40,168 nucleotides of DNA from Clostridia bacterium. Its GTDB lineage: Bacteria > Bacillota > Clostridia > UBA1381. Each line of letters opens with the position of its first letter. Position 1 is the stretch's first letter. Under the pieces are notes generated by a model. It did not search any database. It worked only from the letters and a program-made list of their open reading frames with translations, and was not told where the DNA came from. The stretch spans positions 1-40,168 of the forward strand of contig JAFRDB010000037.1 of the NCBI GenBank assembly GCA_017404065.1. The letters are read 5' to 3'. Shown one piece after another: positions 7,763 through 39,971 of the stretch. The position numbers and the translations under genes are program-made.

Positions 7763-8320
7763 TCAATCCCATGGTGTAAGCGTATTATGACATACGATAA
7801 ATGCTTCATCCGCTATTTCGGCAAGAGGTGTGTCACTTTTGCTGTCAGAGTAGAATTTATCACAGCGGCTTATGCCGTATTTTTCCGCAAGCCGCTTTAC
7901 CTTTTCCTCGCCCCAGCAGTTCTCGCCGGTATATTTGCCCGTATGCTTATCCACTCGCGAGGCTATAAGCCGCTTGACACCGAGCCGCTTGCATATAGGC
8001 TCAAGCAAAAATTCGGGTGATGCTGATATTATTATATCCTCCGGACTTTTTTGAGCCTTGTAATAATCAAATATGTTATCCTCGTGCTTGTCCCAGAAAT
8101 CCTCTACCGCGCGGTCGATATCCGGTATGTACTTTAAAAACGCGTACATTCGCTCCTTAAACCGCGTCTTTGTATATATGCCGAGCGCATACAGCAAAAA
8201 CGCTCCTGCCGTTGGTAGCGCCGTCACATACACTCCGGGATAACGCTTTGCGCAGTATTTTATAAATGCGGCGGTAGAATCGCCGTCATATATTGTCTTG
8301 TCAAAATCATATATATTCAT
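7763..8320 (-). CDS. HAD-superfamily (IB-type) phosphatase
   Basis: 185 residues. The three HAD motifs are present: motif I YDFDKTIYDGDST with nucleophile Asp, motif II ISASP, and motif III YSDSKSDTPL, with a Lys between. The helical cap between motifs I and II is of the phosphoserine-phosphatase-like (subclass IB) type, including a hydrophobic stretch near residues 35-50. Substrate unknown. ATG 8320 gives the usual HAD N-terminus. However, the ribosome binding site AAGGA lies inside repeat R1 and is nearer to the in-frame ATG 8332, which would add MVIS. It is the last gene of carD-ispD-ispF-HAD, separated from ispF by the 199-bp repeat. Confidence 0.85.
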   Translation of the reverse strand: MNIYDFDKTIYDGDSTAAFIKYCAKRYPGVYVTALPTAGAFLLYALGIYTKTRFKERMYAFLKYIPDIDRAVEDFWDKHEDNIFDYYKAQKSPEDIIISASPEFLLEPICKRLGVKRLIASRVDKHTGKYTGENCWGEEKVKRLAEKYGISRCDKFYSDSKSDTPLAEIADEAFIVCHNTLTPWD

Positions 8321-8322
8321 GC

Positions 8323-8521
8323 TTATGACCATTAAATCCTTCCACAAAACCGTATGGGGAAAGTGTGCAATAAAGATCGTGCGTATGAGCAAGCAAGACT
8401 ATTAGCACCGCCAAAATGGGCGGACAGCCGTCAAACCGGCTTTTGACGTAGTCAAAAGTGCTGAAGACTGCTATGTGAGCTTGCGAACACGCACAAGATT
8501 CAAAGCGCATTTTTCCCAAAC
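8323..8521 (-). repeat. R1 repeat copy A: palindromic intergenic element with cloverleaf-like insert
   Basis: On the - strand it runs from GTTTGGGAAAAATGCGC, one base after the ispF TAA, to AAGGATTTAATGGTCATAA, just before the HAD gene. The two halves are imperfect inverted repeats, giving a long bulged hairpin. Both ends match copy B at 19173-19309 almost base for base. Copy A has about 60 extra bases at the apex, near 8404-8462. These fold as stem AGCA/TGCT enclosing three hairpins: TTTTGAC/GTCAAAA, GCCG/CGGC and CCGCC/GGCGG. No transposase is nearby and there is no T-run, so it is not an ordinary terminator. Confidence 0.8.
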
Positions 8522-8522
8522 T

Positions 8523-8993
8523 TTATTCCTCCAGCAATGCTACCGCATACGCACTGATACCTTCCTCGCGGCCCTCAAAGCCGAGCCTTTCCGTCGTGGT
8601 CGCCTTTACGCTTACGCGGTTAATATCAACACCCATGTCCTCCGCCATATTCGAGCGCATCTTTTCTATATGCGGCATGAGCTTTGGTCTTTGCGCCGCT
8701 ACGGTTATATCTGCATTCCCTACCTTAAAGCCCGCCTCCGTTATTCTCTCAACAACGCGGCGCAAAATTATTCTGCTGTCCATTCCCTCATATTCATCAT
8801 CCGTGTCGGGGAAAAGTCTGCCGATATCGCCAAGCGCCGCCGCGCCTAAGAGCGCATCACACAGTGCGTGTATCGCCACATCCGCGTCCGAGTGTCCCAT
8901 AAGTCCCTTTGTATGCGGCACGTCCACGCCGCATATAACACAGCGCCGACCCTCTACGAGCTTATGCACATCGTAACCGAATCCTACTCTCAT
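8523..8993 (-). CDS. ispF: 2-C-methyl-D-erythritol 2,4-cyclodiphosphate synthase
   Basis: 156 residues, full length for IspF. It cyclises CDP-ME-2-phosphate to MEcPP in the MEP isoprenoid pathway. The zinc ligands are visible: D8 and H10 in GYDVHK and H42 in MGHSDADV. The C-terminal motif SVKATTTERLGFEGREEG is typical. The start overlaps the ispD stop as ATGA, so the two are translationally coupled. The stop is followed directly by repeat R1 copy A. Confidence 0.97.
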   Translation of the reverse strand: MRVGFGYDVHKLVEGRRCVICGVDVPHTKGLMGHSDADVAIHALCDALLGAAALGDIGRLFPDTDDEYEGMDSRIILRRVVERITEAGFKVGNADITVAAQRPKLMPHIEKMRSNMAEDMGVDINRVSVKATTTERLGFEGREEGISAYAVALLEE

Positions 8994-18355: not shown

Positions 18356-19167
18356 TACTTTATTACCAATACCTCGCCGAGATTTTCCATATCCGCCGCC
18401 GGTTCAATGACAGCATAGTTGAGCGCGCCGGAATTGTCCGCGGAAATGCTTATAACGCTGCCTACAACTATCCCCGCAGGATACAACCCGCCGGAGCCGG
18501 AGGTCTCGACCATATCGCCGACAATAAGCGTAGTGTTCCTGTCAAGAAACGACAAAGAACACTGTGCATTTGCGGCAAGCTTTATATCGCCTTCAACAAG
18601 ACCGGTTCCGCCCGTCCGCGTTACACGGATACCCACTGCGGAGGAATCGTCCAAAATAGTCTTGACAATGGAATAGTCAATGCCGGCTTCGCTTACCCTT
18701 CCGACAACACCGTCCGCGGTTATAACAACATCGCCCGTCTTTATGCCGCTCGCCGACCCTTTGCTTATCTCTATCTCCTCACACCTGTTGCTGCCGGAAT
18801 ACGATACCACGCGCGCCGCCACCGTATCATAAGTATCCATTGACGTTTGCAGCGCCAGCAGCTCGTTTAGCCGTGCGTTCTCCTCTCTGTATGCGGCAAT
18901 ATCACGATTGGCTCTTTTCAGCTCAAGATTTTCAGCCTCAAGCTTTTCGTTATCCGCCTTATATGCGCGCATCTCAATCATAAAATCTATTCCGCTCTCT
19001 ATATGTCCGACAATATATGAAAAGCCTGCTTTTATAGGTGACAAAACGGAATTTATCACCACTGACATTGGGTTAAAGCCGAGCGCATATTCGGAAACAA
19101 ACCCAAGAACCGCAACAGCGGCAACCGCTGTGATTATTATCTTCCACTTTTTTGTAAGAAAATTCAT
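18355..19167 (-). CDS. mreC: Rod shape-determining protein MreC
   Basis: 270 residues. N-terminal membrane anchor (about 8-28), a coiled coil (about 60-105, including NEKLEAENLELKRANRD), then the twin beta-barrel extracellular domain with VAARVVSYSGSNRCEEIEISKGSASGI and GVVGRVSEAG. It scaffolds PBP2 and MreB. The start ATG directly abuts TAG of a 4-codon frame (MVIN) carried by repeat R1 copy B, and the AAAGGA of the repeat is about 19 bases away from ATG. So initiation may depend on the repeat. Confidence 0.94.
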   Translation of the reverse strand: MNFLTKKWKIIITAVAAVAVLGFVSEYALGFNPMSVVINSVLSPIKAGFSYIVGHIESGIDFMIEMRAYKADNEKLEAENLELKRANRDIAAYREENARLNELLALQTSMDTYDTVAARVVSYSGSNRCEEIEISKGSASGIKTGDVVITADGVVGRVSEAGIDYSIVKTILDDSSAVGIRVTRTGGTGLVEGDIKLAANAQCSLSFLDRNTTLIVGDMVETSGSGGLYPAGIVVGSVISISADNSGALNYAVIEPAADMENLGEVLVIK

Positions 19168-19172
19168 CTAAT

Positions 19173-19309
19173 TTATGACCATTAAATCCTTTCACAAAAC
19201 CGTTTGGGAGAAATGCGCAACGAAGATTGTGCACATGAGCAAACAAGACTATATGCTTATATGCGAGCTTGCGAATGTGTGCAAAATTCAAAGCGCATTT
19301 TTTCCAAAC
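19173..19309 (-). repeat. R1 repeat copy B, between mreB and mreC
   Basis: 137 bp. On the - strand it starts at the mreB stop (TAG-TTTGG) and ends AAAGGATTTAATGGTCATAA before mreC. The arms pair over about 45 bases: GTTTGG..AAATGCGC against GCGCATTTCTCCCAAAC, then TTCGCAAGCTCGCATA against TAGTCTTGTTTGCTCATG. Relative to copy A, two adjacent pairs in the stem changed on both sides while staying paired (G-C to A-T and T-A to C-G). No insert at the apex. Confidence 0.8.
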
Positions 19310-39933: not shown

Positions 39934-39971
39934 ATATGAACACGATCTCCTTTCACAAACTTATGTCTTAT

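Follow-up and report, generated by a model that had tools for sequence, protein, structure and literature searches.

Hairpin repeats set before start codons in gut Clostridia: probable satellites of an IS110-family clade with a start-codon guide

The 40,168-nucleotide contig JAFRDB010000037.1 of a Clostridia bacterium, here called the window, carries two near-identical copies of a palindromic repeat, copy A in the gap between ispF and a HAD-phosphatase gene and copy B in the gap between mreB and mreC. The genes lie on the minus strand, on which all element positions are read (Table 1). The copies are 85% and 84% identical in their two halves and share a 5′ end, GTTTGG(R)AAAAATGCGC, and a 3′ end, GGTTTTGTGRAAGGATTTAATGGTCATAA. 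As the initial annotation had it, each starts close to the upstream stop codon (0–1 nt) and ends just before the next gene, terminating in AAGGATTTAATGGTCATAA at 2 nt (HAD) or 5 nt (mreC) from the ATG. The mreB stop codon, TAG, includes the first base of copy B (G at 19309) and, judged from the junction, appears to have been rebuilt from TAA.

Both copies fold into long hairpins that small internal loops interrupt at regular intervals (z −3.54 for copy A and −3.06 for copy B against shuffles), so that the two halves do pair with each other as first described. Covariation in the stem, initially proposed from two neighbouring stem pairs of the window copies, is seen at the level of whole arms in the wider family: in eight sub-families with distinct left-arm sequences, a left arm is a better pairing partner for the right arm of its own sub-family than for a swapped one (2 of 20,000 permutations did as well), indicating that the pairing is maintained. 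Direct reading of both copies gives GGTTTTGTGAAAGGA 3′ of the hairpin, with no T-run, and the element, as suggested, does not resemble an intrinsic terminator. Rfam returned no gathering match in the window and one weak, unrelated match among six copy-bearing loci. The hairpin tip carries variable modules; L265 and L266, two close orthologous copies, are distinguished by about 60 nt inserted at the tip. Structured tip modules (e.g., AGCACTTTTGAC...GGCGGTGCT) occur in L265 and L266, from two related species, and in L006, L010, L014 and L172; they are common to several species and present or absent among orthologous copies. The hairpin may stabilise the transcript or the insert, or shield the insert on the mRNA. 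A strong hairpin with covarying arms, placed within operons and right behind stop codons in both window copies, would also be expected of an intercistronic RNA or cruciform module that is selected for mRNA stability or translational coupling and spreads between stop and start codons.

The repeat is far from confined to the window. The source genome (a 3.06 Mb draft in 148 contigs, 98.5% complete) contains 52 BLAST matches at E ≤ 10, and the right end of the repeat, which we call the tail, is found 23 times with at most 3 mismatches, compared with 0 for a reversed-pattern control. Tails are present in 15 of 61 genomes, every one in the same taxonomic family, and are absent from all 24 genomes that represent the order's other families. 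When 84,980 species were scanned for exact matches, 24 stretches came up, in metagenome-assembled genomes titled Clostridia, Clostridiales, Oscillospiraceae, Ruminococcus or Candidatus Ornithomonoglobus only. Tail variants are species-specific, such as GGAATTAATGGTCATAA in G002 and GGAGTTAATGGTTATAA in G024, which points to expansion within lineages. Relatives in the same genus have short gaps and no element at either window position wherever the junction could be read, and a search for the repeats in phages, plasmids and viral contigs found none. The family is abundant in gut Clostridia and apparently undescribed.

What the copies have in common is their position relative to the signals for translation initiation. 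Among 128 distinct tails, 90 are followed by an open-frame ATG at exactly 2 nt and 4 by GTG or TTG at that spacing, while 14 have an ATG at another short distance, 11 run straight into GTTTGR-type sequence (the next element or a leader) and 9 have other contexts. On the left of full elements the sequence W-A-A (W, A or T) is nearly invariant (54 of 56 at −3, 51 of 56 at −2 and 52 of 56 at −1), whereas WAA is found at the equivalent distance in 13.7% of ordinary starts that bear a Shine–Dalgarno (SD) sequence, against more than 90% of element sites. The SD of the host gene lies further upstream, to the left of WAA, and joining the two flanks restores an SD (at least 5 of 6 matches to AGGAGG) at 16 of 36 sites, compared with a mean of 3.0 and a maximum of 9 in 2,000 shuffles; nearly all of the restored SDs are 5–9 nt from the ATG. 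The real site is therefore SD...WAA^NN-ATG (^, insertion point; N, any base), and the element separates the SD from the start codon, ending 2 nt short of the ATG and bearing an SD-like AAAGGA of its own at the right end. The left-flank SD profile resembles that of ordinary WAA starts, leaving only WAA and ATG to stand out, and SD position was rejected as a component of the DNA target.

This positional rule changes how the window copies are read. Their stop-to-start appearance comes from the native SDs, GGAGG in ispF and AAGAGG in mreB, which coincide with the last codons of the gene upstream. Many copies elsewhere are placed behind promoters with no close upstream gene, and stop-to-start placement was rejected as a rule. 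Of the portable intercistronic module first proposed, portability therefore stands and the intercistronic placement does not. An element maintained for a role between cistrons is improbable in our view: its position would follow the stop codon rather than the SD and ATG, and many copies behind promoters, solo tails without a hairpin and ends equal to those of IS110 elements (below) do not fit it.

The tail itself could be taken for a cis-regulatory leader, that is, a translational control motif or mini start cassette of SD, ATG and Met-Val-Ile codons, and not a transposon end. Solo tails are indeed found in leaders, and the tail spans an SD together with an ATG that is in frame with most of the genes. 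At spacings other than 2 nt, however, the frame with the element ATG is kept in 2 of 13 copies, for which reason an in-frame Met-Val-Ile start was rejected as the cause of the 2-nt spacing and initiation would be expected at the host start codon. The element ATG is conserved no better than its neighbouring bases, and at the ends of the autonomous elements described below the internal ATG, where present, directly follows AAAGGA without a spacer, which counts against the same cause. Considering also that the tail-bearing genes are unrelated, that species-specific variants indicate lineage expansions, and that copies occur in tandem and have IS110 ends, we regard a leader function as the origin of the tail as very improbable.

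A further comparison is with a 1,678-bp unit in G008, a genome of the same genus (L295:600-2277), which is flanked by two junctions of the repeat and lies in tandem with further copies. Its ends, GTTTGAAAAAAG...GGAAAGGTATGGTCATAA, match those of the repeat, the termini GTTTG...GGTCATAA being common to both, and its product is a 414-residue recombinase of the IS110 family of insertion sequences (ISs), with the domains PF01548 (DEDD_Tnp_IS110, 1.3e-23) and PF02371 (Transposase_20, 2.3e-20) and with IS621 and ISCro4 as relatives in the PDB. Alignments with homologues in G006 and G048 end at, or at most 3 nt from, the ends of the unit. Homologues in G006, G023 and G088 lie immediately before start codons, one G023 copy with GAGGAGGGTAG just left of GTTTG, and the start-codon site is also where relatives from Monoglobales, Enterococcus, Lactococcus, Roseburia and viral contigs are inserted.

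Other drivers of mobility were considered. The palindromic form, the outer ends without terminal inverted repeats, and insertion behind WAA or, in tandem, behind the element's own CATAA could also point to elements of the repetitive extragenic palindromic (REP) or IS200/IS605 type, in which a Y1 (HUH) transposase acts on hairpin ends and inserts 3′ of a short target without duplication. No Y1_Tnp domain scored above threshold in the repeat-rich genomes G000, G002 and G008, and an IS110 element with identical ends exists, making Y1 mobilisation extremely improbable. A reverse transcriptase was rejected as driver: of 16 genomes in the genus, just 5 contain RVT_1. The repeat is not a classical miniature inverted-repeat transposable element (MITE) either, since its outer ends, GTTTG and CATAA, do not form inverted repeats and there is no fixed-length target duplication, the bases shared at the insertion site being at most AA.

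The specificity of the IS110 clade can be followed into its noncoding region upstream of the transposase gene (tnp), where a variable segment, (C/U)AU-NN-core, occupies a fixed place in a conserved RNA. We compared 17 IS110 elements, including plasmid copies from Enterococcus faecalis, E. raffinosus, Lactococcus and Roseburia as well as IMG/VR contigs. With the guide segment placed by eye on the alignment and G-U pairs scored as half, it matches the flank of its own element at 6.59 of 7 positions and swapped flanks at 5.09, a difference reached in 0 of 100,000 permutations; scoring confined to the four variable positions gives 3.82 of 4 and 2.49 (again 0 of 100,000). Even swapped guides score fairly high, since almost all of them contain CAU-like bases, complementary to the start codon. 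The target guide thus agrees with its own site over the reversed start codon, the next two bases and the core. By inspection, and in three elements only, the left donor guide changes in step with the element end (GUAAACUU with CAAAC, GUAACCUU with CAACC and GUAGACUU with CAGAC), and in one element only a right donor guide matching the junction of right and left ends is suggested. The repeats themselves were rejected as carriers of a guide, with one found in 1 of 36. A conserved SD-like GGAGGUGAG was also seen near the 5′ end of the candidate bridge RNA, upstream of the target guide, in L295, L324, L325 and L331 to L345.

Plasmids of E. faecalis provide empty sites. The empty plasmid pUAMSEL3 reads GAAGAATTGGAGGGATAA-AT-ATGAGTAATAG, while an occupied plasmid with flanks 93–99% identical reads GGAGGGATAA/GCTTGAAAATAA... 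on the left and ...GCGAAAGGGATGAATTATAA/AT-ATGAGTAATAG on the right (slashes mark element boundaries), so that GGAGGGATAA-AT-ATG becomes GGAGGGATAA/GCTTG...GAATTATAA/AT-ATG. A second pair, at traC with its GTG start, behaves in the same way, with the flanks of the empty plasmid only 85–91% identical. Judged from these pairs, the autonomous IS enters exactly between SD and start codon at a 2-bp AA core, its end bringing GAAAGG. The Enterococcus members have a short shared core and exact, oriented insertion without a long target duplication, as is characteristic of IS110. The same IS110 lies before traC and before another plasmid gene in L342 and L346, both E. faecalis plasmids. Many plasmids carry these flanks, and natural comparisons of expression before and after insertion look possible.

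Taken together, it is highly probable that the repeats are non-autonomous satellites of an IS110-family clade whose bridge RNA targets start codons, and their placement is best explained by RNA-guided insertion of the IS110 type, not by a role between cistrons. The shared ends, the insertion point, the covariation of guide and target in the IS110 elements and the exact empty sites of the IS are read directly from sequences. We propose the following mechanism. The recombinase would insert DNA at SD...(W)AA^NN-ATG, a rule that the satellites also follow, directed by a left target guide, 5′-(C/U)AU-NN-core-3′, that is the complement of core-NN-ATG on the coding strand and so would read the start codon and the two bases preceding it. 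The donor would be the junction CATAA/GTTTG formed by the element's own ends; because the satellites have this same junction, they could be moved in trans by such a recombinase. Insertion would shift the host SD upstream, and the inserted right end would supply an SD-like GAAAGGA, allowing the host gene to keep a ribosome-binding site and the insertion to be tolerated. The inserted SD is probably functional and the host gene still translated.

Several observations weigh against this interpretation. Copy B is 5 nt, not 2 nt, from the mreC start codon and so departs from the target rule. Beyond about 20 nt at their ends the satellites are unlike the IS, and those of one genome occupy many NN dinucleotides, whereas each IS110 guide specifies one. 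No right target guide was found in the noncoding regions of the clade. An autonomous copy of the clade was not found in the draft genome of the window; insertion sequences are often missing from draft assemblies. Empty sites were seen for the autonomous IS and for no satellite, the relatives within the genus being too diverged (at most 81% identity around mreB), and all support for the satellite reading comes from sequence comparison.

Table 1. Repeat copies, native SD sequences and host start codons in the window (minus strand)
Feature	Position	Strand	Basis
Candidate satellite, copy A, ispF/HAD-phosphatase gap: GTTTGGGAAAAATGCGC...ATGGTCATAA	8323..8521	-	sequence, comparison of copies, fold, flanks
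Native SD (GGAGG) of HAD gene, within last ispF codons, now upstream of element	8528..8532	-	sequence and left flank
Copy A tail: SD-like GGAAGGA, internal ATG, terminal CATAA	8323..8349	-	sequence, tail scan
HAD gene host start codon ATG, 2 nt past copy A; start as in orthologues	8318..8320	-	sequence, orthologues
Candidate satellite, copy B, mreB/mreC gap: GTTTGGAAAAAATGCGC...ATGGTCATAA	19173..19309	-	sequence, comparison of copies, fold, flanks
Native SD-like AAGAGG in last mreB codons	19312..19317	-	sequence and left flank
Copy B tail: SD-like AAAGGA, internal ATG, terminal CATAA	19173..19199	-	sequence, tail scan
mreC host start codon ATG, 5 nt past copy B; start as in orthologues	19165..19167	-	sequence, orthologues
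Degenerate solo tail GTTTGTGAAAGGAGATCGTGTTCATAT, immediately before ATG of amylase-like gene, without hairpin	39934..39960	-	search and direct reading

At the position of the solo tail, the orthologue of the amylase-like gene in G002 (L237) has a full element. The source genome also holds hairpin-only relatives without an SD tail (L060, L061, L064 and L075), immediately 3′ of TAA stop codons and with the downstream native SD intact, which perhaps represent a second insertion habit of related hairpins.

IS110-family ISs with a bridge RNA or seekRNA, such as IS621 and ISEc21, target REP, attC or other fixed sequences (PMC11208160, PMC11187229). The clade described here shares with them the DEDD_Tnp_IS110 and Transposase_20 domains, a guide-bearing noncoding region upstream of tnp, a 2-bp core, the lack of terminal inverted repeats and oriented, site-specific insertion with a guide matching its own site. 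It differs in targeting the start codon itself with variable neighbouring bases, in a core that is mostly TT (AA on the coding strand) where known members use CT, and in bearing an SD-like sequence at the end facing the host gene. IS110 is a known kind of element; a clade of it that reads start codons, with satellites and with ends that carry an SD, would be a new form. Start-codon targets go unmentioned in the primary papers on IS110 guides (PMC11208160, PMC11187229) and did not emerge from literature searches, which largely missed subscription papers and preprints; a limited literature check found no precedent for IS1111 elements at start codons in Coxiella.

The satellites can likewise be compared with other small repeats. 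Like MITEs and related repeats (RUP and BOX of pneumococcus, PMC3049150; QMITEs of Coxiella, PMC5896051), they are short, non-coding and numerous and would be mobilised in trans by an IS; they differ in lacking outer terminal inverted repeats, in a target duplication of at most 2 bp and in being placed between SD and start codon with an SD carried along. With REP elements and bacterial interspersed mosaic elements, which are served by REP-associated tyrosine transposases (RAYTs) (PMC2817692), they share palindromic form, non-coding location, high copy number and tandem arrays. They are set apart from these by the absence of a Y1 transposase in satellite-rich genomes and by oriented placement at start codons. 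Rickettsia palindromic elements are also small, palindromic and mobile, and insert in frame within genes in a manner compatible with expression of the host gene. The satellites differ from them in lying ahead of the start codon and supplying an SD.

Most insertion sequences damage their targets. It is likely that a bridge-RNA clade with an anti-start-codon guide can enter nearly any gene in the gap from SD to ATG, brings a substitute SD that keeps the host viable, and has spawned hairpin satellites that re-set translation initiation at dozens of genes in each genome, core genes such as mreC among them. An RNA-guided element seems to have chosen the start codon, a sequence that every gene must have, and seemingly to have solved the problem of toxicity by carrying a new ribosome-binding site. 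This reading also accounts for an abundant repeat family in gut Clostridia. It would offer an instance from nature of programmable recombination directed at sites of one functional kind, directly testable by bridge-RNA assays that already exist, and a natural setting in which to study how operon expression is reshaped when translation starts receive insertions.
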